DNA of 64,000 nt from Denitrovibrio acetiphilus DSM 12809. GTDB taxonomy: Bacteria; Chrysiogenota; Deferribacteres; Deferribacterales; Geovibrionaceae. The translations under genes and the position numbers were made by a program. Below, piece after piece: positions 158 through 15,290 of the stretch (positions within the stretch are counted from its first letter, which is position 1; each line of letters begins with the position of its first letter). The stretch is from contig NC_013943.1 of the NCBI RefSeq assembly GCF_000025725.1, positions 682,001 to 746,000 of the forward strand, given 5' to 3'. The notes under the pieces are model-generated. The model saw nothing but the letters and a program-made list of their open reading frames with translations. It ran no database searches and was not told the origin of the DNA.

Positions 158-1585
158 ATGTTCAAAAGGATGATCTTTTTATCCTGCGCCTTTTTGACGT
201 TTATGCTGATGCATGTCAGCAGTGCGTCAGCGGAAAACATGGTTACTCCAGACTTATGGTCTTATCATGTTAATGCGGGCAAAATCAGTCAGGCAACAGA
301 AGGACTGAGCATAGGGGAGACAAGTCTGTATTTAACTCTGACTACTAGATATCGCTATAGTTCAAATGATTATGCGAATGACAGTGACATTTATCAGTAT
401 CTCAAGACAAATTTTGATGAGGTAAGAGTTGGTACAGGAACAATCTCAGGCAAGCTGTATTTTCGTGTAGCTGAGGATCTTGATTCTGATGACAATCAGG
501 ACTGGTCAGATTCCTCTTACTATTTTTATCGTGATGCACTCGATAAAGAGCTTCAGGAAAATGATCTTGCACCGAGGTTATATTACGGAAACCTTGTTTT
601 CAGCGACTTCTTGGAAGGTACTAAGTTAGTGCTTGGTCGTCAGTATGTGGACAACCTGAATAATTTCCACATAGATGGCGGTGCTGCAAGCTATAGCTAC
701 GGTGAGAAGCTTGATGTCTATATTTATGGGGGTATGACAGTAAGTTATTTTTATGAGAATGACGATGACTACCTTTATGGTGGAGGTATCACTGCCAAGC
801 CATTTGAGAACACATCAATACAGGTCGAAGGTAACAAGCTAGAAGTTGAAGACATGGGTGATGATATGCTGTCTGCAAAGATATCCCAGCAGCTTCCATT
901 TGGTTATGCGTACGTTAAATACGATCAGATCAATGATGCTGATCTTTTCGAAGCTGCTGGTAATTTTCGCATAGAAAAAACACGCACATCATTAAGGTTA
1001 AAATACTCCGGTCAGTATAACAAGATAGACGTTAGTGATTCTTCATATGTAGTTAATCCGTTTACCTACTCACTTATGGATAGTGAAAAATTCAGTAAAT
1101 ATAAGATTAATATCAACCAGCAAATCATTAATATGCTGTCTTTGGATTTAGGCGGAGAGTTTAAGCAGATAGACGGTGATCTAAACCGTTATAACCGCGA
1201 ATATAACAAATATACGGTAGCAGTAAATATTGATGAACTATTCCAAGGAAATTTTATAAGAATTTCTGCCGAAATGATGGACTTTGATGACTATTACAGC
1301 ACAGATGAGGAAAAAGTCCGCTTTGGTTTTCAGATGTCACAAAGGGTCTCTGAGAAGATAGATGTCTGGACGGGCATAGATCATCAGAGTTTTGTTTATG
1401 ACTATGAAGATGATGAGTATAAAGAGTCTGTAACGGTGTATTACATAGGAACTGAGTGGAGACCTCTGGGGTTTCTGTCCTGCAGTCTTGATCTTTCAGC
1501 AGAAGATACTGAAATGTACGAGGATTTATCCGACGATCTCAACACTAACTATACAGCAGAAGCTCACTTGTCTTTAATGTTTTAG
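158..1585 (+). CDS. Outer-membrane beta-barrel protein (porin-like)
   Basis: Predicted exported barrel of 475 residues. The start at 158 is chosen because AGGAGG-like sequence (GGAGG at 148-152) precedes it; upstream in-frame codons lack a ribosome site. A signal peptide ends near ASAEN. The mature part alternates Tyr/Phe/Val with Asp/Glu/Ser, as in antiparallel strands, and ends in Leu-Met-Phe, the terminal aromatic typical of outer-membrane barrels. It sits 8 bases before a multiheme cytochrome and ahead of a molybdoenzyme, so by analogy with MtrB/DmsF it may hold an electron conduit. I see no direct sequence motif proving MtrB homology, and a generic porin is possible. Confidence 0.75.
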   Translation: MFKRMIFLSCAFLTFMLMHVSSASAENMVTPDLWSYHVNAGKISQATEGLSIGETSLYLTLTTRYRYSSNDYANDSDIYQYLKTNFDEVRVGTGTISGKLYFRVAEDLDSDDNQDWSDSSYYFYRDALDKELQENDLAPRLYYGNLVFSDFLEGTKLVLGRQYVDNLNNFHIDGGAASYSYGEKLDVYIYGGMTVSYFYENDDDYLYGGGITAKPFENTSIQVEGNKLEVEDMGDDMLSAKISQQLPFGYAYVKYDQINDADLFEAAGNFRIEKTRTSLRLKYSGQYNKIDVSDSSYVVNPFTYSLMDSEKFSKYKININQQIINMLSLDLGGEFKQIDGDLNRYNREYNKYTVAVNIDELFQGNFIRISAEMMDFDDYYSTDEEKVRFGFQMSQRVSEKIDVWTGIDHQSFVYDYEDDEYKESVTVYYIGTEWRPLGFLSCSLDLSAEDTEMYEDLSDDLNTNYTAEAHLSLMF

Positions 1586-1593
1586 GAGGAGTA

Positions 1594-2055
1594 ATGTTTA
1601 AAAAACGAATTCATACCATAATCGCAATTTTGTGCATAATGTTTGTTTCTTTTGCTGTTTCCTATGCCGTTGAAACCAGTAAACCTGATTCTCATGGAGT
1701 GAACTGGATACAAGAGCATGGTGATGCCAGTACATTTAATAACAAGGAATGCATGGACTGCCACACAGATAAGTCATCCTGCATCCAGTGTCATGAAGAG
1801 GCTGCACCTAGAAATCATAATGCGTCCTGGACGCGTAGAGGTCATGGGCTGGAGGCCAAATGGGATAGAGAATCCTGCTCAACATGTCACAAGGAAGATT
1901 CGTGTATTGAGTGTCACACAAGCACTCCTCCGTCAGACCACAGGTACGGATGGAGAGAACCAACAAATGCACATTGTGGGAACTGCCATTATCCGATTCA
2001 GGAGACTAGGTGTTATACCTGCCATAAGAGAGCTCATGCTCCTAATGAATATTGA
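1594..2055 (+). CDS. Small hexaheme c-type cytochrome
   Basis: Periplasmic electron carrier of 153 residues with an N-terminal signal peptide (cleavage after about residue 25, near SYAVE). Six CXXCH haem-binding motifs are visible: CMDCH, CIQCH, CSTCH, CIECH, CGNCH and CYTCH. Several extra histidines could be distal ligands. A strong AGGAGG site precedes the ATG. It lies between the barrel gene and the molybdoenzyme, so its likely role is electron transfer between an inner-membrane quinol donor or barrel conduit and the reductase. It is much shorter than decahaem MtrA/DmsE proteins, so it is not a simple orthologue. Confidence 0.92.
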   Translation: MFKKRIHTIIAILCIMFVSFAVSYAVETSKPDSHGVNWIQEHGDASTFNNKECMDCHTDKSSCIQCHEEAAPRNHNASWTRRGHGLEAKWDRESCSTCHKEDSCIECHTSTPPSDHRYGWREPTNAHCGNCHYPIQETRCYTCHKRAHAPNEY

Positions 2056-2069
2056 TTAAGAGGTATATA

Positions 2070-5009
2070 ATGAAAACAAAAAAGAAAAATTATCTGACAG
2101 AAAACAAAATAAGCAGAAGGGATTTTCTTAAGTGGACATCTGCTCTTAGTGCAACTGCTGTCGCTAATGGTTGCGGTGGCGGAAGTGGACCAGAGGACTA
2201 TACTGATGATCTATTAGTCCCACAAGAAGAATTTGTTATGGACAGAGAACTTAAAGAAGTTATGGGCACTCACCCTCACAACTGTGGTGGGAGATGTCCT
2301 TTTAAATTCTCTGTAAAAGGGCATGGTACTCCACAGGCAAAAATAGCTAAACTAACAGCTGCAGGTGACGTTGCCAGAGAGAATTCACTGGAAGCAGATG
2401 AGTCTACATCATTCGTCCAGACAAGGGCCTGTGTCAGAGGTTATGCTCAGATTAAAAGAACATATTCCCCTGACAGACTGAAATATCCGCTTGTCCAGAC
2501 AAAAGAACGAGGCGATGTTACAGGTTTTAAGAGAGTCAGCTGGGATGAGGCTCTTGATGCAGTCGCTGATAAAATCGCTGAAGTTTATTCAAGATTTAGC
2601 AGTGGTGAACTGCCGTATATTCCCATGGTTGCAGGTCCTCCGAATGGATTACATAACCGTATGATGTTTGCAGGTATGCCATTTATGGGATTTGCCGAGG
2701 GGGCAGGTTCTGCTTTATCGAAGTATCTCGGACCTACAATACTTCCTACAGGCGCACCCTCATTTGAAAACATGCTTTTTGCATCTATAGGATCAGTCGG
2801 GCTGCTTCCAGGGCTAGCTGGCGGAAACTCAGTGCATAATTATAAAAATTCAGATTTTATCATACAGTGGGGAGCAGATCCTGCTGTGAAAGAACCAAAT
2901 AAAACGTTCTTTCTGACCAAAGCAAAAGAAGCTGGTGTACCTATAGTTACTGTTGATGCTCAATACACTGACACTGCTTCTATTCTTTCTACAGGTTTTC
3001 CTGAGTACAATATACCTCAGTTTATTCAGGTTAGACCACAGACTGATGCTGCACTTTCTGTTGCGATGGCTTATATAATTTACAACAGGGATTGGCATGA
3101 CGATACATTTATAAAAGATAATTGTTTTGGGTTTTATCCGACACAAGGGGCTCCTGTAGATAGTGATGGGAATCCTTTTACAGTCGTTGATCCACCTAAA
3201 CATCCTGGATTTGTTAATTCAAAGCTTGACTTTTCATTTCAGACACAACTTACTCCAGATCAGCACCCTTTTGCAGATCCTGCGCTTGCCGGTCAAGATG
3301 TCCATGTCCCTGCTGGGCTGTCATTTGTTGAATATCTGGACGGGTTAGGAGTTGAGAAAGCTGCTGAGTTTGGTCTTGTTGACAAGGAAGATGCTGTTGT
3401 TACATGGGCATCCCAGTTGTCAGGTGTAGCAAAGGAAACAATAGTGAACTTTGCGGACGCATTTGCAAACGCTGGAGATGTGTTTCTTGAAAATGGGAAT
3501 AACGGTGGACAAAAAACAAATAACGGCATGCATAATGTCTGGATGATGATATGTCTGGCTGCGATGTGCGGACATACTGTAAAACAAGGCGGTAACCTTG
3601 GTGTTAACTCGTCGGATGGCGACTCTAACCCCGTGGGTTTCCCTGGTGGTTTAACTTACCCTGAGCTTGGCAGTGGTACTACTTATCCGTTTATTGCAGT
3701 GGATGCAAATAAGTTTGTAGACCTTGTTGTTACTGGCCGTGATGGAAGAACAGAAGATCAGTTTTATGAAGATACGAAATCAATTTACGGTGTCGATCTT
3801 GGTTCACCTGCAACAGCTAAACTTGAAGTTGATATGGTTTTAGGATCCTACCATATTACAAACTCATTCAATACATGTCCGAATACAAATAAGGCTGTGA
3901 ATATTTTCACCCAGAAAAATGGTAGCGACTATAAAATCAAGCATTATGTTATTTATGAACAGAACATGACTCCTACAGCAGCTTATGCCGATATCATTTT
4001 GCCTGCGTGTTCGCATCATGAAAAACCATTTTTTACTAGTGGTCAGGCTACATACTTTCAGAATAAACTAATTGAACCTATGTATGATACTAAATCGGAT
4101 GTTGATATCGATATTTTGCTTGCTGAAAAACTCAATGCCAGAGGCATAAGTGTTTCATATAGCAGAAACGGCAAAACTGATGAAGAACTTTGTGCAGAAG
4201 CATGGGATACAGCAACTGTATCAGATATTGATAAGCCTACTTTTGCAGAAGTACAAGAGCAAGGCATCGTTCAGAAGGAAGTCAGTGGTACCGTTCCAAA
4301 TCCTATGACCGGTCTTATGGGGTATCTCCCTTACACTACTGAAACGGGCAAGATTCAATTTTTCTCGCCGTTTTATTATTACAGGGATGGTTGTGACTTA
4401 GCAACTCAGACTGAAAAGTCTAGAGTGACATCAAGGGCGATGTATATTGAGCCTTATGAAGGTTACGACAAAATCATGAAGGGCGAAAACGTCGGTGTCA
4501 AAGGGAAAGAATATTCATTACAATTCACAACAAAGCATGCGAGGAATAGAGTTCATACCGTTTATGACAATGTTTCCGTGATACGTGATCAGTTTGATTA
4601 TCCAAAACGTGCACTCATGAGTCCTGCAGATGCTTCTAAAAGAGGCATAAAAGATGGCGACATGGTTTATGTCTATAATGATTGGGGCTGTTTAAAGGTC
4701 GGAGTAGGTATTTCACCAACAATAAGAGAGGGTGTTGTTAGTCTTCCGCATGGTGTTTGGTATAGAAAAGGAAGTGAAACATATGAGGCTTGGTATGATA
4801 TCGATCTTGGTGATGCGGTAGATAGTACTGTGGTTAGTGAAACAACTTACTATAAGCACATAGTTAATGTTGATATTGGTGGGTGTGAAAATACTTTAAC
4901 TCACGATAAAGACTTTGGAAGCCCTAAAGACCCGTTATGCGGACAGGTTGGCGACAACCATTTTAACGGAAATCTTTGTGAAGTTAGTAAAAATCATCCA
5001 GATAGTTAG
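2070..5009 (+). CDS. DMSO-reductase-family molybdopterin oxidoreductase, catalytic subunit (Tat, lipoprotein-like)
   Basis: Catalytic subunit of 979 residues binding a bis-MGD cofactor; substrate unknown. The start at 2070 follows AAGAGGT; in-frame codons from 2052 overlap the previous stop. A Tat signal (SRRDFLK, residues 15-21) runs into a lipobox-like Ala-Asn-Gly-Cys with Cys35, suggesting a membrane-anchored Tat lipoprotein. The proximal cluster motif is His68-x3-Cys72-x3-Cys76 with Cys121 later; DmsA has Cys in the first place, while NarG/SerA/DdhA-type enzymes have His. The segment RACVRG...SPDRLKYPL is DmsA-like. By rough alignment to DmsA, Ser in GAPSFEN would be the Mo ligand (inference). 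The C-terminal molydopterin-dinucleotide-binding domain is present, and the ferredoxin subunit follows after 20 bases. Confidence 0.93.
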   Translation: MKTKKKNYLTENKISRRDFLKWTSALSATAVANGCGGGSGPEDYTDDLLVPQEEFVMDRELKEVMGTHPHNCGGRCPFKFSVKGHGTPQAKIAKLTAAGDVARENSLEADESTSFVQTRACVRGYAQIKRTYSPDRLKYPLVQTKERGDVTGFKRVSWDEALDAVADKIAEVYSRFSSGELPYIPMVAGPPNGLHNRMMFAGMPFMGFAEGAGSALSKYLGPTILPTGAPSFENMLFASIGSVGLLPGLAGGNSVHNYKNSDFIIQWGADPAVKEPNKTFFLTKAKEAGVPIVTVDAQYTDTASILSTGFPEYNIPQFIQVRPQTDAALSVAMAYIIYNRDWHDDTFIKDNCFGFYPTQGAPVDSDGNPFTVVDPPKHPGFVNSKLDFSFQTQLTPDQHPFADPALAGQDVHVPAGLSFVEYLDGLGVEKAAEFGLVDKEDAVVTWASQLSGVAKETIVNFADAFANAGDVFLENGNNGGQKTNNGMHNVWMMICLAAMCGHTVKQGGNLGVNSSDGDSNPVGFPGGLTYPELGSGTTYPFIAVDANKFVDLVVTGRDGRTEDQFYEDTKSIYGVDLGSPATAKLEVDMVLGSYHITNSFNTCPNTNKAVNIFTQKNGSDYKIKHYVIYEQNMTPTAAYADIILPACSHHEKPFFTSGQATYFQNKLIEPMYDTKSDVDIDILLAEKLNARGISVSYSRNGKTDEELCAEAWDTATVSDIDKPTFAEVQEQGIVQKEVSGTVPNPMTGLMGYLPYTTETGKIQFFSPFYYYRDGCDLATQTEKSRVTSRAMYIEPYEGYDKIMKGENVGVKGKEYSLQFTTKHARNRVHTVYDNVSVIRDQFDYPKRALMSPADASKRGIKDGDMVYVYNDWGCLKVGVGISPTIREGVVSLPHGVWYRKGSETYEAWYDIDLGDAVDSTVVSETTYYKHIVNVDIGGCENTLTHDKDFGSPKDPLCGQVGDNHFNGNLCEVSKNHPDS

Positions 5010-5029
5010 TAAAGTTGTGGAGGTAAACA

Positions 5030-5776
5030 ATGAGTCAATGGGGATTTTATTTTGACCAAACAAGATGTGTTGGATGTAAGGCCTGCATGCTTGCTTGTAA
5101 AAACTGGAATGACGATAGACGTGGCGATTATAATATTAACTCAGATTCTATGAATCCAGATACAGACTGGTATAGTTCTGGAACGTATGTTGTTGATGTT
5201 AATGACATGGAAGACGTGTCTAACTATTTGAACAGCGCTGGCGAGACGAATTATGAGCAAAACAGAAAGTACTATATGAAGGAAGACTGGAGAAGGGTTA
5301 ATGCTAATGAAAGAGCTTATCCTTATGCGTTGAAACATATTTCTCTTGCCTGTAATCACTGCACAAATCCAGCATGTGTTGAGGCTTGTCCAATGGGTAT
5401 CATATACAAAGAAGAAGAATATGGCCTTGTTCTTGTAAATAATGAGACATGTATCTCGTGCGGTAAGTGTAAAGAAGCATGTCCCTGGGATGCTCCACAA
5501 TTTTATGCACCTGATTTTAGCCAGTATCAACTAGATGATACCACTAGACCAAAAATGACTAAATGTACACTATGTTTAGACAGGATTCAGGAAGGACTTA
5601 AGCCTGCATGCGTAGCTGCCTGTCTTAACAGGGCCTTAGACGCTGGTCCGATTGATGAGATCAGAGCAAAATGGACTAATTTTGGTAAAGATGTTGTAGA
5701 ATATACGGCAATGTCAAGTGAAGACTTTGCAAGTAGCAGTGGTTTAGAGCCGAATATTATTTTTGTTAAGAAGTAA
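5030..5776 (+). CDS. Four-cluster ferredoxin subunit of the molybdoenzyme (DmsB-like)
   Basis: Electron-transfer subunit of 248 residues with four cysteine groups: CVGCKACMLACK near residue 13, CNHCTNPACVEACP, CISCGKCKEACPW and CTLCLDR...CVAAC. All sixteen ligand positions appear filled, so four [4Fe-4S] clusters are expected. It has no signal of its own, as usual for DmsB-type subunits carried out by the Tat signal of the partner. It starts after TGGAGGT, 20 bases from the catalytic gene. No DmsC-like membrane anchor follows, which leaves the quinol link to another protein, such as the cytochrome or polyferredoxin nearby. Confidence 0.92.
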   Translation: MSQWGFYFDQTRCVGCKACMLACKNWNDDRRGDYNINSDSMNPDTDWYSSGTYVVDVNDMEDVSNYLNSAGETNYEQNRKYYMKEDWRRVNANERAYPYALKHISLACNHCTNPACVEACPMGIIYKEEEYGLVLVNNETCISCGKCKEACPWDAPQFYAPDFSQYQLDDTTRPKMTKCTLCLDRIQEGLKPACVAACLNRALDAGPIDEIRAKWTNFGKDVVEYTAMSSEDFASSSGLEPNIIFVKK

Positions 5777-5784
5777 TTCTTACG

Positions 5785-5820
5785 AATACAGGCGGGAGAA
5801 AACCTCCTGCCTGTATTTTT
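5785..5820 (+). terminator. Rho-independent terminator after the barrel-cytochrome-reductase unit
   Basis: A long inverted repeat (ATACAGGC..GGAG / CTCC..GCCTGTAT with an AAAA loop) is followed by a run of T. It closes the first unit 8 bases after the ferredoxin gene. Confidence 0.85.
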
Positions 5821-5838: not shown

Positions 5839-8181
5839 ATGAATACAACTTTGATAAATATGAATCAACTGGATTCAATACGTTCGACAAATACTATACC
5901 CATTCTTCAAGGATACATAGCTACTTATCTTAATAAACATGAACATGATACACAGATCATTGATGATTTACAAGATGCTCCACTTACTTTGGAAGATTTA
6001 AATAGGCATATGCAAGAGTTCCGACCTAAGCTGGTAGGATTCTCTGGTTATCACTACTTGATGGAACGAATACGTTTTTTTGCAAGATTCATAAAGGAGT
6101 ATTATCCTGAAACAAAGCTTATACTTGGTGGTCCACAGTCTCTTTTTCTTCCGGGGGATGGACTTAAAGATCTTCAGGACTTTGACATAATTTGCAACAA
6201 AGGTGAAGGTGAATTAACCACACTTAACATAGCTGAGTCACTGAAAAGTGGAGATAGTTTTTATAATATACCAGGGATTTCATTTAAGGATAATGATCAA
6301 ATCATTACTACCAACCGACCTGACTGTTTGCCTCAAGATCTAGATATCTACCCTTCCCCTTATGTTCAGGGTGTTATTGATTTAAGTATGAAAAAGACAG
6401 CGTGTATTTTTACATCCAGAGGATGTGAACATGTCTGTAATTTTTGTGTTACACCGTTGTTTAATAATATGAGGATTCGTTTTCATTCGGTGGATCATGT
6501 GTTGGAAGAAATGCAATATTTAGAATCAGCGGGTATGGATAGTTTATGGATAGGTGATCCGAACTTTACTGCATACAGAAGTCGAACAGTAGAGTTGATG
6601 GAACAGAAAATAAATAGAGGTATAAGAATACCTTTTTGGTGTCAAACTAGAGTTGATATGGTTGATAAAGACTTGTTGAAGTTGATGCAAAAAGCAGGTC
6701 TTCATTGTATAGGCTTTGGGCTTGAATCAGGAAGCGACAAGATACTTAATACTATGCATAAGGAAGTTTCTATCTCAAGATTCCATGAAATCGTTACCTA
6801 CGCGCAGTCGTTGGGGATAAATGTGGAACTGTTCTCTATGTATGGGCAACCTGGAGAAACCTATGAAGATGCAAGAAAAACAATCAGTATAGTTCAGAAG
6901 TACGATATACCTATTTATGCGAACTCGTGTGCACAGCAACTACAGCTTACATGTGGTTCTATGTACGGGAAGGATCCAGAGAAATTTGGCTTTAAGGTTA
7001 GTGACAAGTATATCCCGAGCTACCTTTCATTTTGGCATGAGTATGAAACCGATTGCTTAACACGTTTAGATCTAAGAAAAATTCAGGCTGCATGGGTTCT
7101 CTATAATAAAGAAACAGAGTTCAATATTGAAAATTGTATAAATATATTTCATACAGTTGATTATATATTAGAACATAAGGAAATGCTGAAAGAAGAAAAA
7201 CGTCTTTATGAGTACTGGCTGTACCTTGGGTCATTGCTTGAAGATAAAGAAACTATGATGCAGTGTATTAAAAATTTCAGAAAAAATATTTCTACTGATA
7301 AGAAAGAACTGACTAAACTACTTAAACATGCAGACATGTATTCTGTATCAGATACAGTACAAAACAACAGCCGTGTGATTATATTTTGTCAATACGAAGG
7401 GCAGTATATTCCTGAAAAACATTACTTAAAGCCGGGGCTCAATGACCTCAGATACAAAATTCAAAAAGGAACTTTGTTGGGAATGAAGGTGAATGAGTCT
7501 GTAAAGGTTACGTTAAGTGATGGTCAAGGCACGAACGTCATTATTTCCGTACTCAGAATATTTAATAAAGTTAAAATAAAAGATGTAAAGCAGCTTGATA
7601 AAAATCACTTATGGCATGATTATAATTTTATAAGTTATAAGGCTTTGGAGCAGTCGAGTAACGAACTTCTTTTATTTCTCACTCTGAAAAGCATCCCTTA
7701 TAGTCAATTTGCGGGGATTCCTCAAGTATTACTTAATCTAGTTTCTTATTATACCAAAATACATAAGTTTTCAGAAGTCGAAAAGTGTTATAGGGGCATG
7801 CTTCTAATTCCTCATGTTGCTTACAAAGTTGCTGAGACCTTTGGAGACATTATCTCCTATGCCGGCAAACATGAAGAGGCTATAGAATATTATAATAAAT
7901 CCGATGTGACAGAACACGTTTTAATAAAAAAAGCTTATTCATATGTAAAACTAAACAGGCATGAGGAAGCGTTTAACATATTGAAAAATATAAGTAAAAA
8001 AGAGGATATGCTGTATTGTGAGGTAATGCTTGAGTGTTTGCATAACCTCTCTGCTGATAACATAGACGAAATAAGAGCATTGAGTCATAAAGTTGTACAT
8101 ATGAAAGTTCAGAAAATACTTGAAAACAGCACATTAGCTGTAAATTTAAAAAGTAAGGTTGCTTCTAATGTTAGAGCATGA
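5839..8181 (+). CDS. Cobalamin-domain radical SAM protein with long C-terminal extension
   Basis: Enzyme of 780 residues. Residues 1-150 look like the B12-binding Rossmann domain of class B radical SAM enzymes (LILGGPQSLFLPGDG near 95-108). The cluster motif CEHVCNFC spans Cys196, Cys200 and Cys203, followed by a TIM-barrel-like domain with GFGLESGSDKIL. From about residue 430 the protein continues as a helical extension with TPR-like helices. Substrate is unknown: possibilities are methylation or another radical step on a cofactor, lipid or peptide. It is AT-rich and overlaps the next radical SAM gene, so the two are likely co-translated. Its position between two molybdoenzyme modules suggests a linked job, but that is inference. 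Confidence 0.85.
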   Translation: MNTTLINMNQLDSIRSTNTIPILQGYIATYLNKHEHDTQIIDDLQDAPLTLEDLNRHMQEFRPKLVGFSGYHYLMERIRFFARFIKEYYPETKLILGGPQSLFLPGDGLKDLQDFDIICNKGEGELTTLNIAESLKSGDSFYNIPGISFKDNDQIITTNRPDCLPQDLDIYPSPYVQGVIDLSMKKTACIFTSRGCEHVCNFCVTPLFNNMRIRFHSVDHVLEEMQYLESAGMDSLWIGDPNFTAYRSRTVELMEQKINRGIRIPFWCQTRVDMVDKDLLKLMQKAGLHCIGFGLESGSDKILNTMHKEVSISRFHEIVTYAQSLGINVELFSMYGQPGETYEDARKTISIVQKYDIPIYANSCAQQLQLTCGSMYGKDPEKFGFKVSDKYIPSYLSFWHEYETDCLTRLDLRKIQAAWVLYNKETEFNIENCINIFHTVDYILEHKEMLKEEKRLYEYWLYLGSLLEDKETMMQCIKNFRKNISTDKKELTKLLKHADMYSVSDTVQNNSRVIIFCQYEGQYIPEKHYLKPGLNDLRYKIQKGTLLGMKVNESVKVTLSDGQGTNVIISVLRIFNKVKIKDVKQLDKNHLWHDYNFISYKALEQSSNELLLFLTLKSIPYSQFAGIPQVLLNLVSYYTKIHKFSEVEKCYRGMLLIPHVAYKVAETFGDIISYAGKHEEAIEYYNKSDVTEHVLIKKAYSYVKLNRHEEAFNILKNISKKEDMLYCEVMLECLHNLSADNIDEIRALSHKVVHMKVQKILENSTLAVNLKSKVASNVRA

Positions 8182-9922
8182 TGTTGTTTTTCTGGTTTTA
8201 AAAGAAACATCCTCGTATTTCCACTCTGTTGAAGAAGATGCAGCAGCGGCTACTTTAGTTTACTATATGAAAGAAGCTGGTCTTCAAAATCTATCTACAT
8301 TCCCAGCGACAGATGAGGATAAATACTCAGGTACTATTTATAGTCAATTTATGACATATCTTGATAAGAATACAGCGCCTATATTTTGTATCTCATGCTG
8401 GACAAGTACTTATGCAATAGCTTCTGATTTTGCCGAAATGATTAGAGCTCGTTACCCACGATCATTGATTATTGCGGGAGGCGTACATTTCAATTCTTTA
8501 GGAGAAACAGAACATTCTCTGTATAAAGGGACATTTGATGTGGTCTTTAGAGGTGGTGGAGATAGTTTTTTAGAATTTATTAAGTTAAGTGTTGTTGAAA
8601 AAAAGTTGAAAATATACAAAGAAAAAGGTGAAATCAAAATATCGGGGGCTACTTTAGGGAAGGGGGCGTATTATTTAAAAAATAGAAAAATCCAAAATAC
8701 AGGAAGAGGAAGCTTTAATCGTCCTGTTGTGCCGTTACTCGGAGTAACTAATGACTGTATTGACACAAGGATTTTGCTGCACGACACATGTCCAAATGCG
8801 TGCGACTATTGTTTTATACAACCCTCAGGTATCAACTGTAACTATTGGGCTTCTCTTATAAAATGGGTAGGTGAATTTAGCGGTCAAGTAAAAAAAACGT
8901 ATAAAAAGGATGTTGTGCTTTCGTTGTCTGATAGCGCACCTTTCAATAAAAGTAACCGAAAGCGTACACTTGACTATTTAGATATGCAAAAAAAGAATGT
9001 AAGGTTTGACGGCATGAACGTTTTTGTTGACCCATCTGATTTAGATGAAGAGTTTTATCATATTGTTGAAGAGCATGACATAAACAACTTTTTTATAGGG
9101 CGAGATAGAATTATATCTGACAACTTTGTAGGTAGAAGGCTTAATGGATTGGAACGGTCTTCAGAGCAGCTTGATCAGGAGTTAGATTTGATTCTTAACT
9201 TTATGGCTTTTCTTAATACAAGGAAGAATAAACTTCAAAACGAAATATATATAGGTTACATCGTATCTCCATATGAAAGTGCAAAATATTCACGGAAACT
9301 AATAGACGAGCTTTCTGGTATTACGATGCATAATTCAAAATTAACAAACGTGAGAGTTCAATCAAATTTATTTATACTTAACCCATACCCAGGCACTAAA
9401 GTTGCACAAAAAGCTAAAGGTGAGTTTATTGCAATGAGGTATTTTTATCATCCATATCCTAATGTATGGGTAGGAAAAAATACTGTTAATATATATTTAG
9501 AAGTAATTCGGCTTATAGTTGCAAAGATGTTTTGCAATAATATAAACATCTCCTTTTATAAGCCTATTTTAGAAATGGCTCATTCCCTTCAGTTTCAAAC
9601 AGATTATAATTATAAACTTATAGATGATATAGAAGATGTGTCTTTACGAAGCTTTGCGTATAAGATAATTGAAGATATTTTCAAAATGGAACTAAGCAAA
9701 GAAAGAACTTTGGATGAGTATTTAGAAAATGTTAAATCAATCTATTATATAGGATGTATGGTGAGTTTAGTTATTAACAAACCAGAGTTATTAAAATACA
9801 AGAATTTGTATAGCAGTATAGTAAAAGAAGATAAGTCAGTCGCTTTTTTGATGAAGGATTTAAACTTATTAAAAGAATATGCCTTAGCAGGCAAAGCCCC
9901 AGTGTTGGATAAATACTTATAG
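8168..9922 (+). CDS. Second cobalamin-domain-like radical SAM protein
   Basis: Protein of 584 residues. The ATG at 8168 is preferred because AAGTAAGG lies 9 bases upstream; an earlier TTG at 8159 is too close to it. The N-terminal part has a B12-domain-like segment (IIAGGVHFNSLGETE near 101-115). The radical SAM motif is CPNACDYC at Cys208, Cys212 and Cys215. The C-terminal third is helical and not recognised. The gene overlaps the preceding radical SAM gene by 14 bases, so the pair probably act together. Substrate is unknown. Confidence 0.82.
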   Translation: MLEHDVVFLVLKETSSYFHSVEEDAAAATLVYYMKEAGLQNLSTFPATDEDKYSGTIYSQFMTYLDKNTAPIFCISCWTSTYAIASDFAEMIRARYPRSLIIAGGVHFNSLGETEHSLYKGTFDVVFRGGGDSFLEFIKLSVVEKKLKIYKEKGEIKISGATLGKGAYYLKNRKIQNTGRGSFNRPVVPLLGVTNDCIDTRILLHDTCPNACDYCFIQPSGINCNYWASLIKWVGEFSGQVKKTYKKDVVLSLSDSAPFNKSNRKRTLDYLDMQKKNVRFDGMNVFVDPSDLDEEFYHIVEEHDINNFFIGRDRIISDNFVGRRLNGLERSSEQLDQELDLILNFMAFLNTRKNKLQNEIYIGYIVSPYESAKYSRKLIDELSGITMHNSKLTNVRVQSNLFILNPYPGTKVAQKAKGEFIAMRYFYHPYPNVWVGKNTVNIYLEVIRLIVAKMFCNNINISFYKPILEMAHSLQFQTDYNYKLIDDIEDVSLRSFAYKIIEDIFKMELSKERTLDEYLENVKSIYYIGCMVSLVINKPELLKYKNLYSSIVKEDKSVAFLMKDLNLLKEYALAGKAPVLDKYL

Positions 9923-9959: not shown

Positions 9960-10661
9960 ATGGAGATTATTGATTTACAAAATGCTACAGCACTAAGAAC
10001 TGTTCTTTATAGAAATCTAACAAGATGGTATTCGAAAGAAATTGACCATAAGTGTCTATTAGAGATGAATTCAACTCTTGCAATGTTTGCAGATTACAAC
10101 AAAGGTCGAAACGATAATATGCTCGAAAAGGGCATTGAAATAATTAAAAATTTCACTGGTAAGCATAGTGATTTGACACTCTTGGTTGATGAACTTGCAC
10201 TAAAGTACACGACTATCTTCTTAAATGTATCTCCTAATGGTGTAGTCAAACATGTTCATCCTTATGAGTCTGTTTATTTGTCTCCAAATAAACTTGTTAT
10301 GCAAGATCAAAGAGATGAGGTTTTGGAGTTTTATGCTGAACAGCAGATGGGAGTAGCAGATAATTTTAAAGAACCTGAGGATCACATTGCTATAGAGCTC
10401 GCATTCCTCCAAGAGCTTAACAAACGTATTTGTAAAGAATTAGCAAACAATAATATGGATGATGCTCTCGATAAGTTTGAGGTACATAGTAAATTTATGC
10501 AGCAACATTTACTCAAGTGGGTGCATTTATTAGGAAGAGATTTGATCGCATCAGATCCTAATGGATTTTACGCCGGCCTAGCCAATATAACAATTGGTTT
10601 TGTTAAGGAAGATTACATGTATGTTGAAGAGGTAATGGATTATATTAAGACATGCAATTAG
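9960..10661 (+). CDS. TorD/DmsD-family molybdoenzyme chaperone
   Basis: Cytoplasmic all-helical chaperone of 233 residues that should bind the Tat signal of a molybdoenzyme until cofactor is loaded. Family signs are the PYESVYL segment near residue 100 and the EPEDHIAIELAFL motif (ExxDHxxxEL). It starts after AGAGGT. It follows the two radical SAM genes and runs directly into a remnant of a molybdoenzyme gene, with only nine bases between the stop and the remnant's first start-like codon. Confidence 0.88.
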   Translation: MEIIDLQNATALRTVLYRNLTRWYSKEIDHKCLLEMNSTLAMFADYNKGRNDNMLEKGIEIIKNFTGKHSDLTLLVDELALKYTTIFLNVSPNGVVKHVHPYESVYLSPNKLVMQDQRDEVLEFYAEQQMGVADNFKEPEDHIAIELAFLQELNKRICKELANNNMDDALDKFEVHSKFMQQHLLKWVHLLGRDLIASDPNGFYAGLANITIGFVKEDYMYVEEVMDYIKTCN

Positions 10662-10670
10662 ATTCTACAC

Positions 10671-11549
10671 TTGTCTAATATGGGGAACACAGCAGATGAT
10701 TGGCGAAGAGAAGCTGTAGAACCACTACTCTCAGGATATTTCCCGGATACAACATATGATGAGTGGAAAGAACTCGGAACTGTATCAATGGATGAAAGTC
10801 ATGGTATTACAGTAAATGCTGAAATGGCAGCCTTTAGAGCAGACCCTGATAATAATCCTCTCCTTACACCCTCGGGTAAATTTGAGATATATAATCAGGC
10901 AATGGTGGAAGACTATGAAGCCAGAGGATATGTCAATATTGACGGACGTTTTACCCTGACGGGAAATCTGCACGATGGAAGTAATGCAGGGCGATTTGTT
11001 TACCCTATACCAATGGTTATTCCTATGATGGAAGGCTTATTCGCCGAAGGAGCAACAGACCCACATCCAGACCCTCTAGAAAGAGATGATGCAGGATATA
11101 CGTTAGGTTTAAACGGATGGCATATTTATTATCGTTCACACTCAACACATAATAATAACGCTTATATTAATGAAGTGTTTAAGAAAAACTCTAAAGGGCA
11201 ACCTGCTTTTCTTGATCCGAATAGAGAGACAGGTGAAGCATGGGATGATAATGTTTATGAGCCTGTAGTAATAAACCCTTATGATGCGGAAGCTAACGGT
11301 ATAACGGATGGAGACAGAGTAGTGCTGGAAAATTCCAGAGGGAGCATTTATGCCTCAGCTACAATTTCACAGAGAGTACGTAAAGGCTGGCTTGCAATAG
11401 GACAAGGCGGCTGGGCTAATGGAGATAATGCAAATGGAACTCCTGACATAGGCGGCGCCATCAATGTATTAACAAAACTTTTGCCTACCCGTATATGCCA
11501 GGGTATGACTCTCGGTGCAGACACAAGAGTAAAAATAAGAAAAGCCTGA
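10671..11549 (+). pseudogene. C-terminal remnant of a second molybdopterin oxidoreductase catalytic subunit
   Basis: The open frame encodes about 292 residues matching only the last third of a DMSO-reductase-family subunit: LTPSGKFEIYNQ, a domain junction with NGWHIYYRSHSTHNN, and the dinucleotide-binding domain with EANGITDGDRVVLENSRG. The Tat signal, cluster-binding motif and Mo-binding centre are absent, so it cannot be a working enzyme alone. The frame is the same as the preceding chaperone, separated only by a TAG stop at 10659-10661. This suggests a deletion fused the chaperone region to the 3' end of the old gene. The ferredoxin partner gene downstream is intact. Confidence 0.85.
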
Positions 11550-11561
11550 TAGGAGTTTAAA

Positions 11562-12173
11562 ATGAGTTATGCATTTTACTATGACCAGAATAGATGTATG
11601 GGATGCAACACTTGTGTTGTTTCATGTAAAGACTGGAACAGTGTTAACCCCGGACCGGCAAGGTGGAGAAATCTCTCCACCAGAGAAAACGGCACATTTC
11701 CGAATGTAGCGATATACAACCTTGTGCTGTCCTGTAACCATTGCGAGAATCCCGCATGTACAGCAGCATGCCCTGTAGGTGCTATTTACAAGAGGGAAGA
11801 GGACGGCATAGTTATCGTGAACAGAGACCTCTGTCAGAACATTAAGGCGTGTGCCGTAGCCTGTCCTTTCGGTGCTCCGAATTTCGGAGATGATGATTCC
11901 GAGCCGATGCCGGAGGCCACATGGGCTGTCGACCACCCTATGCAGAAATGTACTTTCTGCTGGGATAGATGGGAGGAAGGCAAAAAACCATCCTGTGTGA
12001 GCTCCTGCCCGAACAGGGCGCTAGACGCAGGCACAGTGGAGGAGATAGAGGCAAAGTACCCATTGGCGGTTAAAACTGTTGTCGGATATCCGGATTCGAG
12101 TAAGGATTCCCAAGGGAATTCACTACCGAACGGCGATACTCTGCCATGTATATATTTTAACCCCAAGTCGTGA
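11562..12173 (+). CDS. Ferredoxin subunit of a second molybdoenzyme (NarH-like cluster pattern)
   Basis: Iron-sulfur protein of 203 residues with cysteine groups CMGCNTCVVSCK, CNHCENPACTAACP, CQNIKACAVACP and CTFCWDR...CVSSCP. In the third group the second cysteine is Ile (C-x5-C-x3-CP). This is the position where NarH-type subunits have Trp and hold a [3Fe-4S] cluster, so a 3Fe cluster is expected here. It starts after TAGGAGT, 12 bases from the truncated catalytic gene. It has higher GC than the radical SAM pair upstream. Without a full catalytic partner nearby its use is uncertain. Confidence 0.88.
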   Translation: MSYAFYYDQNRCMGCNTCVVSCKDWNSVNPGPARWRNLSTRENGTFPNVAIYNLVLSCNHCENPACTAACPVGAIYKREEDGIVIVNRDLCQNIKACAVACPFGAPNFGDDDSEPMPEATWAVDHPMQKCTFCWDRWEEGKKPSCVSSCPNRALDAGTVEEIEAKYPLAVKTVVGYPDSSKDSQGNSLPNGDTLPCIYFNPKS

Positions 12174-12181
12174 CATAGACG

Positions 12182-12214
12182 TGCCGGAGTCCGTTAAAAG
12201 CGGGCTCCGGCATT
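12182..12214 (+). terminator. Hairpin after the second ferredoxin subunit
   Basis: GCCGGAGTCCG and CGGGCTCCGGC form an 11-bp stem with one G-T pair around TTAAAAG, followed by ATTTT. It could end transcription or attenuate read-through into the next radical SAM gene, whose start lies 11 bases on. Confidence 0.65.
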
Positions 12215-12224
12215 TTAGGTGCTT

Positions 12225-13451
12225 ATGAACTATATAGATTTTCTCAGTCACCATACAACACGAAAGTCCGCTTTATTGAATATCCTGAACAGTTTCTCTC
12301 TGCCTGTAGGTGAAGATGAAAATACAGAATACAGCGGACTGATAAGCATATTAAATGAAAATCCGCTGGTGAAGATATGCAATGCAGGCAAAAGCATAAG
12401 GTACAACTATGTTTCAGAAGCCTGCGAACTTTGCCATAAAGGTGACAGGTCACACACCTTCATCACATCTCTGGAATGCTCCAGATACTGCTATTACTGT
12501 GCGAATCTGAATCAGGAAGAATCTGTTTTCCTACCTCTTAAAGAACAGTATGATGCCCGCGAAGACAGGCAGATGCTCCAGTCAGTAGGCATCACAGGCG
12601 GAGAACCTTTCCTTTTCAAAAAAGAAGTAACGGGTTTCGTGGGCTATGTGAAAGAGGATAACCCTGACTGCTACATTCGCATATATACATGCGGAGACTA
12701 TTTAGACAGCACACTTCTGCAGGAACTGCAGATGCTGGGGCTGGATGAGATAAGGATTTCGGTTAAGCCGGACGATGCTGTCAGTACTGCACTGGATAAG
12801 ATATCGCTTTGTGCTGAATATATCCCGCATGTTGTTGTGGAGATGCCTGTTTTTCCGGATGAAGAGGAATATATGCAAAACTTGCTTATAAGTTTGCAGG
12901 ATACCGGTGCAGCCGGCATTAATCTGCTGGAATTCCTCTTTCCTCTTAATAACGAGCAGGTATTTGCAGAGAAGGGCTACAGACTGAAGCATACGCCTTA
13001 TCATGTGATCTATAACTATGATTATCCGGGCGGTCTGCCAATTGCCGGAAGTGAGCTTTTGGCTTTGCGCCTTATTGAATTTGCCGCAGGAGAAAAACTC
13101 AACATAGGTGTTCACTACTGCGCATTGGAAAACAAATTCACCTCTCAGATATATTTTCAAAACAGTCGTATAAAACTTAGAAACTGGGAAATCATGGATC
13201 CTAATGATTTTTTTATTAAAACTCTGCGAGTGAAAATAGATGGCACAGATATAATCTCGGAGCTGGGTCTTAAAGAGAACGATTATTTTAAAGGATCAGA
13301 TTATGTAGATATACATCCTATGTTTCGAGAAAAGACTGGAGCGATTGAGATGACGTTAGTATATAGTGTTGCTGAAAATATTGAAAATAAAACTGTAATC
13401 AGAGAAGTGCACTATGGGGCACTGAAAGGAGTTTCACATGAACTGCAATAA
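12225..13451 (+). CDS. Radical SAM protein with CSRYCYYC motif
   Basis: Protein of 408 residues from the ATG at 12225 (AGG five bases upstream). The radical SAM motif is Cys85-x3-Cys89-x2-Cys92, with GITGGEPFL (122-130) as the SAM-binding GGEP. Two more cysteines (Cys67, Cys70) precede it as C-x2-C and could hold metal or another cluster. No cobalamin domain is seen. The gene overlaps the following TorD gene by 14 bases, so it is probably part of molybdoenzyme maturation or modification. The exact reaction is not recognisable. Confidence 0.82.
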   Translation: MNYIDFLSHHTTRKSALLNILNSFSLPVGEDENTEYSGLISILNENPLVKICNAGKSIRYNYVSEACELCHKGDRSHTFITSLECSRYCYYCANLNQEESVFLPLKEQYDAREDRQMLQSVGITGGEPFLFKKEVTGFVGYVKEDNPDCYIRIYTCGDYLDSTLLQELQMLGLDEIRISVKPDDAVSTALDKISLCAEYIPHVVVEMPVFPDEEEYMQNLLISLQDTGAAGINLLEFLFPLNNEQVFAEKGYRLKHTPYHVIYNYDYPGGLPIAGSELLALRLIEFAAGEKLNIGVHYCALENKFTSQIYFQNSRIKLRNWEIMDPNDFFIKTLRVKIDGTDIISELGLKENDYFKGSDYVDIHPMFREKTGAIEMTLVYSVAENIENKTVIREVHYGALKGVSHELQ

Positions 13452-14148
13452 AGATAAAAATATCATAAGTGGTGATGACGTCAAACCTGTTCTACAGGCC
13501 AGAAGCATTTTTTATAAACTGTTTTCTGACTTCTTCTACGATATTCTGGAAGACAATTCTTTGTTAGATCATTTGTTTGCTAGTTTGAATACGCTGGAGC
13601 AAATGCTGGCAATGAGGTGTGATGACCCTGTGCTTGAAGACGCCTTTCAAGTAATACGTGAAGAATTGAGTAACAGAAATGAGATTGAACATAAGCTTGC
13701 CAGGGAATATACTTCTTCCTTTTTATTGGGAGGGTACTCTGTAAATCTCAGTGCTTCTCCATACTTTTCTCCAACAGGAACAATGTATCAGGAAGAGCGT
13801 AGTGAAGTGAAAAATATTTATATTTCTTCAGGGCTAAAACTGAATACAAATAAAAAGATCCCTGAAGATCATCTGGCTTTAGAACTGTATTACATGCACT
13901 ATATGGCGAATAGGGATATGAGTGTGATTGATGATAAATCTAAATTAATTAATTCCTTTAGGAGCCAGGCTGATTTTATGGAGAATAACGTTTATCCGTT
14001 AGTGTATGCAGTTACAAAAGCCTCTGAAAAGAAAAGAAATACAGGGTTTTATATGAGCTTGCTTATAATACTGAAAGAATTTGTGAAGCAGGATACTGAA
14101 ACTGTTAACTGTCTTATCTCAGATGAGGAGGAGCTATGTTTGGACTAG
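13438..14148 (+). CDS. TorD-family molybdoenzyme chaperone, second copy
   Basis: Helical chaperone of 236 residues. Family signs are YFSPTGTMYQEERSEV near residue 104 and KIPEDHLALELYYMH (ExDHxxxEL motif). It starts inside the end of the radical SAM gene, and its own last 13 bases overlap the tatA-like start. This tight packing implies translational coupling. It presumably serves the second, now truncated molybdoenzyme or the intact one upstream. Confidence 0.87.
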   Translation: MNCNKDKNIISGDDVKPVLQARSIFYKLFSDFFYDILEDNSLLDHLFASLNTLEQMLAMRCDDPVLEDAFQVIREELSNRNEIEHKLAREYTSSFLLGGYSVNLSASPYFSPTGTMYQEERSEVKNIYISSGLKLNTNKKIPEDHLALELYYMHYMANRDMSVIDDKSKLINSFRSQADFMENNVYPLVYAVTKASEKKRNTGFYMSLLIILKEFVKQDTETVNCLISDEEELCLD

Positions 14149-14285
14149 GGCACGCTGAATTATTGATAATAGCTTTGCTTTTATTTGTTCTGTTTGGTTA
14201 TAAAAAACTTCCGATGTTAGGAGAGAACCTTGCAAAGGCACTAAAGAGCTTTAAAACTGGTGTTATAGATACTGACGAGAAGTAA
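14136..14285 (+). CDS. tatA: TatA-like twin-arginine translocase subunit (49 residues)
   Basis: A very short gene read directly from the sequence. It begins MFGLGHAELLIIALLLFVLF, a single membrane helix with the Phe-Gly/Glu-Leu pattern of TatA. The hinge GYKKLPMLGENLAKALKSFK then gives the amphipathic helix with the Phe-Gly-x-Lys-Lys-Leu-Pro signature. The acidic tail is only nine residues. GAGGAG precedes the ATG, and the start lies inside the TorD gene. A TatA dedicated to a molybdoenzyme cluster would support export of the folded reductase. Confidence 0.88.
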   Translation: MFGLGHAELLIIALLLFVLFGYKKLPMLGENLAKALKSFKTGVIDTDEK

Positions 14286-14297
14286 GGTGATTAAGGT

Positions 14298-15290
14298 ATG
14301 ATTGGCATAAAAATCGATCCTGAAAAGTTACAATGTGGAATAACTGTCAGGCCCCAGAGTTGCGTGAGAATGTATTACAAAAATGCATCATGTAATTTAT
14401 GTGTGGAACTTTGCCCGGAAAATGCTGTGAAAGTAGGTATGCCTGGGACAAAAGTACTCGTTAACCCTTCAAAGTGCTCAAGTTGTGAGATATGTGTAGG
14501 TGCATGCCCTTACGGCGTTTTTACTGTTTCAGGTACTAATGACTATATTCGCTGTGTCAATTTGCTAGAGAGTACCTATGACCAGGGGCTCAAGCTCGCT
14601 TGTGGAAAAAGCGCAACTAAAGACGCTGTAAAGATTGAGTGCTTAGGATCCTTAAATAGTGTACTTCTTCTATTTCTCTTAACTTCAGGAGTTAAGAAAA
14701 TAGAGCTTGATATGAAACCGTGCGTTGATTGTGAAATTTCTGAATACATGCATAAAATCCTTAATAAAGAGCTTGAAATTACAAGAAATATGCTTAGGTC
14801 TGTAGCTGCAGGTTATAAAGAATATGTAATAGAAAATGCCATGCTCATAATGTTAGAAAACGATATATTTCAGAAAGCTCAGAAAACGGAAATTTCATGT
14901 AGTAGGCGTGGTTTCTTTAATCACATGAAGAAAAACGTATTAAAAAATATGTCAGCTATTACTGAGATAATTGAGTCAGCCCCAGTGGAGAGAGTTGTTA
15001 TTACTGACAAAAAACCTGTTAATAATAGAAAGCATATTGCAAATATAATTTATGATCGTCTGGTGTCATTAAATAAAAACATACCTATGGTTGCTGGGTT
15101 TCCAATTGGTAAGATATTCGTGAATAACACTGACTGTACTCAATGTCGAGTTTGCGAAAAACTATGTCCCACTGGATCAATATTAATAGATGATGGAGCT
15201 TTTAAACATAATGTCTATAAATGCATCGGATGTGGAGTCTGTGTTGATTTGTGTAGTCGTAACTGTATTAAGTTGCCACCAGAGAAGTAG
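14298..15290 (+). CDS. Polyferredoxin-like 4Fe-4S protein
   Basis: Soluble iron-sulfur protein of 330 residues. The N-terminal part has CNLCVELCP and CSSCEICVGACP; the C-terminal part has CTQCRVCEKLCP and CIGCGVCVDLCSRNC. About 200 residues separate the pairs; they hold scattered cysteines (CGK, CLG, CVDC) and no clear fold signature. An internal SCSRRGFF string resembles a Tat motif but lies mid-protein. It is the last gene of the respiratory cluster, after tatA, and probably passes electrons or assists cofactor assembly. Specific partner unknown. Confidence 0.8.
   Translation: MIGIKIDPEKLQCGITVRPQSCVRMYYKNASCNLCVELCPENAVKVGMPGTKVLVNPSKCSSCEICVGACPYGVFTVSGTNDYIRCVNLLESTYDQGLKLACGKSATKDAVKIECLGSLNSVLLLFLLTSGVKKIELDMKPCVDCEISEYMHKILNKELEITRNMLRSVAAGYKEYVIENAMLIMLENDIFQKAQKTEISCSRRGFFNHMKKNVLKNMSAITEIIESAPVERVVITDKKPVNNRKHIANIIYDRLVSLNKNIPMVAGFPIGKIFVNNTDCTQCRVCEKLCPTGSILIDDGAFKHNVYKCIGCGVCVDLCSRNCIKLPPEK

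Follow-up and report, generated by a model that had tools for sequence, protein, structure and literature searches.

Results

The Four-Gene Unit

The window (the whole stretch of DNA that was analysed, 64,000 nucleotides of Denitrovibrio acetiphilus DSM 12809, positions 682,001 to 746,000 of contig NC_013943.1) carries close to its start four genes with the following coordinates, counted from the first letter of the window:

158..1585, +: barrel gene of porin-cytochrome type (ATG start, 475 aa, signal peptide)
1594..2055, +: hexahaem c-type cytochrome, the presumed lumen wire (153 aa, signal peptide, six CXXCH)
2070..5009, +: molybdoenzyme of the DMSO reductase superfamily, the putative catalytic head (979 aa, Tat signal and lipobox)
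2070..2174, +: Tat-lipoprotein signal peptide of the molybdoenzyme, as far as lipobox Cys35 (in the array units described below this part is constant)
5030..5776, +: Fe-S subunit, DmsB-like (248 aa, Cys motifs for four [4Fe-4S] clusters, no signal peptide)
5784..5818, +: intrinsic terminator (15-bp hairpin and T run)

The preliminary description of the locus had four adjacent genes ending at a terminator, a cytochrome with only six haems in 153 residues, and no anchor of the DmsC type, and all of this is confirmed. The genes occupy the coordinates above, on the same strand and with gaps of 8, 14, and 20 nucleotides between them, and the hairpin at 5784–5818 is strong by folding (−24.9 kcal/mol, z −7.7) and followed by a run of T. 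Six CXXCH motifs are counted in the cytochrome, and no gene for a DmsC/NrfD-type anchor is found between 158 and 15290 of the window. An outer-membrane multihaem cytochrome is absent from the unit, and the molybdoenzyme stands in its place. In a promoter scan of the window the sites were no more numerous than in shuffled sequences, and the terminator, though clear by folding, was not listed by the scan. The extent of the unit was correctly given as four genes; its functional neighbourhood, however, continues to about 15290.

When genomes were sampled from the nearest relatives outward, 27 of 60 were found to carry the barrel. The barrel-cytochrome pair recurs in relatives, and the association of the four genes is therefore not one of chance.

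A Barrel and a Short Multihaem Cytochrome

The barrel has no match in Pfam. Prediction by AlphaFold2 on 23 homologues gives a model with 22 strands (pLDDT 76, pTM 0.70). When the inside of this model is assumed to be the more polar face of the strand residues, 29 positions on that face are conserved at 80%, versus 12 on the opposite one (P 0.006). Not one of the 23 members of the barrel family matches MtrB or PioB in Pfam at E 0.1, and a PDB profile search with the family gave no sequence match. The fold search placed generic outer-membrane barrels on top (TonB receptors with Z 19, OprD types), MtrB being absent among the matches listed.

Relatives of the barrel occur in other phyla, with E values down to 6e-37 in a profile search of 385 genomes. 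At the ten clearest loci outside the phylum, the barrel adjoins a cytochrome of 301–353 aa with 11–14 haems, and a large further multihaem protein is usually close by. Among the barrel-carrying genomes, the gene next to the barrel encodes, at loci that are not cut by a contig end, a cytochrome with 5–6 haems. The preliminary description would be refuted if homologous operons showed the barrel to be a porin of unrelated kind; this is contradicted by its position beside multihaem cytochromes both within and outside the phylum.

Invariance in the cytochrome family extends to most of the haem-binding residues and to seven additional histidines, which would fit bis-histidine haems. The hexahaem protein aligns to the C-terminal half of the 11–14-haem cytochromes, with iE down to 1e-38. 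Since the relatives of the barrel lie beside these larger cytochromes, and since the hexahaem protein matches their C-terminal half, the barrel and the cytochrome appear to be a shortened form of a porin-cytochrome pair. By sequence the two are not of the MtrB/MtrA type, and the locus does differ from the Shewanella-type system, as first suggested: the barrel is without an MtrB/PioB match, the cytochrome has six haems and is not decahaem, and the PDB profile search with the cytochrome family, like that with the barrel family, found no sequence. An AlphaFold2 model of the cytochrome alone was unreliable (pLDDT 57) and was left unused. TonB-dependent receptors, which have the size of 22 strands, hold a plug of roughly 150 residues inside, so that the barrel might have room for the cytochrome, whose mature form has about 125 residues.

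The Molybdoenzyme and Its Fe-S Subunit

The window molybdoenzyme has twin arginines at R16-R17 and a lipobox cysteine at Cys35, and Pfam finds in it Molybdopterin (1e-23; 84 bits, cut-off 24), Molydop_binding (5e-21; 75 bits, cut-off 26.8), and TAT_signal (7e-5). By these Pfam matches and those in NCBIfam, it is classed as a member of the DMSO reductase superfamily. It is nearest to DmsA/YnfE, at a score for DmsA (TIGR02166) of 288 bits, which does not reach the curated cut-off of 777.7. The Fe-S subunit has a Fer4_11 match (2e-19) and its best family match in dmsB, at 152 bits below the cut-off of 214. As it is without a signal peptide, it would be exported together with its molybdoenzyme partner. 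For the heads in general, the best family matches are DMSO, selenate, and TMAO reductases, all far under the curated cut-offs. The heads of the tandem array described below have a Y-S motif at the position of the DMSO reductase serine, where the window head aligns unclearly. No relatives of the head were found in viral contigs.

A Tat signal with a lipobox is present in 5 of 5 conduit-linked molybdoenzymes of this genome versus 3 of 16 others, one of these three being judged by eye (P 0.003). Heads occur in 24 of the 60 genomes, and the barrel is found in 23 of these 24 versus 5 of the 36 others, which corresponds to P 9e-11, or 3e-7 within the order, both values being uncorrected for kinship; in one genome (G029) a head is present and no barrel was found. 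As to the recurrence of the four-gene order in other genomes, the barrel-cytochrome pair recurs, but the full order is one of several arrangements: in G008, G022, G023, and G037 there are window-type heads that have no conduit next to them, and those of G022 are without a lipobox.

Surroundings of the Unit

Downstream of the terminator, the neighbourhood contains the following genes:

5839..8181, +: B12-binding radical SAM protein 1; in G006 and G008 its gene is linked to that of the window-type head
8159..9922, +: B12-binding radical SAM-like protein 2, with the same linkage in both genomes
9960..10661, +: TorD/NarJ-type chaperone (PF02613, 1.1e-25)
10671..11549, +: array-type molybdoenzyme of which the C-terminal part is left, N-terminal two thirds missing
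11562..12173, +: array-type Fe-S subunit of the remnant, 77% identical to an array copy
12219..13451, +: radical SAM protein of the array-type accessory set
13438..14148, +: second TorD/NarJ-type chaperone, from the same accessory set
14298..15290, +: ferredoxin-like protein of the accessory set (330 aa)

Both B12/radical SAM genes and the chaperone gene are kept with the window-type head in G006 and G008, and their products may serve in the maturation of the head or its cofactor. The stretch 10671–15290 is the scar of a second unit, the conduit of which is gone together with most of the head, and this is consistent with recombination between units. Upstream of the window unit there are insertion sequences.

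With a truncated head at 10671–11549 on one side and transposase-like genes on the other, it could be thought that the window unit itself is a decaying relic, beside the truncated second unit and the insertion sequences, and perhaps no longer expressed. However, its four genes are intact, the accessory genes are also kept, and the head and the Fe-S protein are 79–88% and 77–82% identical, respectively, to intact copies in G006 and G008. Decay is therefore very improbable.

Homogenised Conduits and Exchangeable Heads

The genome of the window (G000) has six copies of the barrel. Four complete four-gene units form a tandem array at G000:C1:193341-216252 (L036:9341-14811, L095:1-17626 onward), which is preceded by genes for a response regulator and a histidine kinase. 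Within the array, the nucleotide identity is 97–100% for the barrel and cytochrome genes and 91–99.8% for the Fe-S gene, and only 61–67% for the molybdoenzyme gene. As far as the end of the molybdoenzyme signal peptide, identity is close to 100%; it falls abruptly some 126 nucleotides after the start of the gene and rises again at the Fe-S gene. At fourfold-degenerate sites the identity is 89–100% for barrel and cytochrome, 80–99% for the Fe-S gene, and 47–54% for the molybdoenzyme. High identity at such sites indicates that the constancy of the array conduit is due to recent homogenisation of DNA and not to protein constraint alone.

The same separation between head and conduit is seen across genomes. 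G006 has a unit with a window-type head, in which the head and the Fe-S subunit are 79% and 82% identical, respectively, to those of the window, while its barrel and cytochrome are 98–100% identical to the other conduits of G006, and the heads on those other conduits are only 25–27% identical to the window-type head. One head type is found on conduits that are 39% identical to each other. In phylogenetic trees, barrels cluster by genome and heads by type across genera, with full support at the key forks. Together, the exchange in G006 and the trees indicate that heads and conduits are exchangeable parts.

Some loci depart from the common arrangement. At L067:9740-12616 and L030:80-2934, a dihaem protein whose signal resembles a lipobox takes the place of the molybdoenzyme after barrel and cytochrome, and may be a head of another kind. 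At 2.78 Mb in the genome of the window (L038:5870-10941, contig C1), a barrel-cytochrome pair that stands alone has upstream of it a TorA-like molybdoenzyme gene without a lipobox. The locus is preceded by a two-component system and followed by radical SAM and chaperone-like genes. In G369 (L090:2896-10852), a porin-cytochrome unit lies directly beside alternative complex III/Qrc-like genes (molybdopterin-type, Fe-S, and pentahaem proteins), a possible entry of quinol electrons to the conduit.

In six genomes (G004, G005, G007, G008, G016, G043), contigs often end inside the barrel or the cytochrome gene or near the head gene. This is expected if the units are near-identical repeats that were collapsed in the draft assemblies, in which case the copy numbers in these genomes are probably too low.

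Poly-G Tracts in a Family of Relatives

Poly-G phase switching is typical of surface-exposed proteins. In the related family f6, which is perhaps the gut clade around Mucispirillum, 15 genomes were tested, and a run of nine or ten G about 30 nucleotides behind the lipobox codon was found at 23 loci (L117–L139) in six of them (G016, G023, G037, G040, G042, G043). The reversed control pattern had zero matches. Of these loci, 5 are in frame and 18 are frame-shifted. Two copies in G037 (L135 and L126) have the same sequence in the signal region, the one with G9 being in frame and the one with G10 out of frame, as slipped-strand phase variation produces. The tracts thus likely reflect such variation of surface-type molybdoenzymes. 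Selenocysteine and pseudogenes were also considered as causes of the short molybdoenzyme reading frames in G023, G037, and G042, and both are ruled out by the G9/G10 tract with its frame shift. In the window itself, no run of G reaches a length of eight.

These observations bear on a rival explanation, in which the molybdoenzyme is periplasmic, either soluble or on the inner leaflet of the outer membrane, with the hexahaem protein as a periplasmic donor and the barrel as a substrate porin. A lipobox does not by itself put a protein outside, some heads lack the lipobox or a neighbouring conduit, and the OprD-type porins are among the best structural matches of the barrel. A substrate porin should, however, vary with the enzyme that it serves, whereas barrel and cytochrome are 97–100% identical in nucleotides where the heads differ by a third. 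The barrel relatives, moreover, sit in porin-cytochrome loci with multihaem proteins, and poly-G switching of heads suits proteins at the surface. A periplasmic enzyme is, with this, a rather unlikely alternative.

Proposed Mechanism

We propose that the products of the four genes form a respiratory complex of the outer membrane, in which a conduit powers a molybdoenzyme at the cell surface, and assign to this reading a probability of roughly 0.7. Electrons from quinol would pass to periplasmic cytochromes, from these to the six haems inside the barrel and across the outer membrane, and from there via the four [4Fe-4S] clusters of the Fe-S subunit and FS0 to Mo. The molybdoenzyme and the Fe-S subunit would be exported by the Tat system and anchored as a lipoprotein, so that the acceptor is reduced at the surface. 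The conduit would be generic, and the molybdoenzyme its exchangeable head. The six-haem cytochrome would be inserted in the lumen, and a place for the molybdoenzyme on the outer face of the outer membrane appears most likely. The genome has NapC/NrfH-type matches and 19 matches of cytochrome c3 type.

In favour of a conduit count the polar and more conserved lumen face of the barrel model, the Tat-lipobox on 5 of 5 conduit-linked heads, and a type II secretion system (GspD and GspG) in the genome; Shewanella probably brings its surface reductases out by type II secretion. Against it count the generic fold matches of the barrel, the unreliable model of the cytochrome, the heads without a conduit, and the circumstance that six haems may be too few for a full span of the membrane. 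The earlier proposal of a small extracellular or periplasmic respiratory conduit is hence supported, by the homology of the conduit, the exchange of heads, and the co-occurrence of heads and conduits, but falls short of proof.

The direction of electron flow would be reductive. It could also be reversed, the molybdoenzyme oxidising a substrate and sending electrons inward, or a periplasmic oxidase dumping its electrons outside via the conduit. Porin-cytochrome conduits do run both ways, and MtoAB and PioAB oxidise Fe(II) (PMC4245776, PMC9732548). The heads, however, match DMSO, selenate, and TMAO reductases best, albeit far below the curated cut-offs, and the genome is that of a member of a group that respires anaerobically, which makes reversed flow distinctly improbable.

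In a wider reading, to which we give even odds, extracellular respiration is of a plug-in kind throughout the phylum: heads are swapped by recombination on a homogenised mini-conduit, comprising the 22-strand barrel, the 6-haem wire, and the shared lipoprotein signal, and are switched by poly-G tracts in gut-associated relatives, so that a population would display different surface reductases.

Discussion

Extracellular respiration is usually studied via conduits that are decahaem and MtrA-type, or larger, and with metals as acceptors. If the proposal above is true, a conduit of half length serves molybdoenzymes, and its exchangeable heads offer a way to find out which component determines the substrate and which the flow of electrons. 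With conduits homogenised within a genome, heads of ancient identity, and an apparent phase variation of heads, surface respiration would then be a trait open to adaptation, for some relatives perhaps inside the gut.

No description of this conduit-enzyme system was found in the open-access literature, to which the search was confined, and the parts consulted of two Deferribacterota genome papers (PMC13186404, PMC6896113) contain no such units. A survey that required both dmsEFAB and mtrCAB returned Shewanella and Ferrimonas only (PMC9732548).

With DmsABC, SerABC, and NarGHI the unit has in common a Mo-pterin subunit, an Fe-S subunit with four clusters, and a TorD/NarJ chaperone. It differs from them in that an inner-membrane anchor is missing, in its lipoprotein signal, and in scores below every curated DmsA and DmsB cut-off.

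As in the poly-G genes of Campylobacter and Neisseria, the f6 heads contain a homopolymer within the reading frame, the length of which sets copies in or out of frame. Unlike in those genes, the putative switch is part of respiratory molybdoenzymes and comes directly after the lipoprotein signal; it belongs to relatives and not to the window, and its length differs between gene copies.

In the DmsEFAB system of Shewanella and Ferrimonas, an extracellular reductase of DMSO and also of iodate, a barrel and a multihaem cytochrome are thought to feed a Tat-exported molybdoenzyme and its Fe-S subunit on the outside (PMC9732548). The window unit likewise has a DmsA-like enzyme with a Tat signal and lipobox and a DmsB-like subunit. 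However, DmsE is a decahaem homologue of MtrA and DmsF a homologue of MtrB, whereas the window barrel has 22 predicted strands and no Pfam match, and its cytochrome is a six-haem protein of 153 residues.

The unit also resembles the Pcc complexes of Geobacter, Anaeromyxobacter, Kuenenia, and others in that a barrel gene adjoins a gene for a multihaem cytochrome, a relationship which, at the level of sequence, goes through the loci of porin-cytochrome type in other phyla (11–14 haems, about 300–350 aa). In the duplicated Pcc clusters of G. sulfurreducens, the barrel and the periplasmic cytochrome are 100% identical and the outer cytochrome is 71% identical (PMC4245776). In contrast to the Pcc complexes, the window unit replaces the terminal outer cytochrome, which is present in most but not all Pcc clusters, by a molybdoenzyme with its Fe-S subunit, the cytochrome is of about half the length, and there are several types of head per genome.
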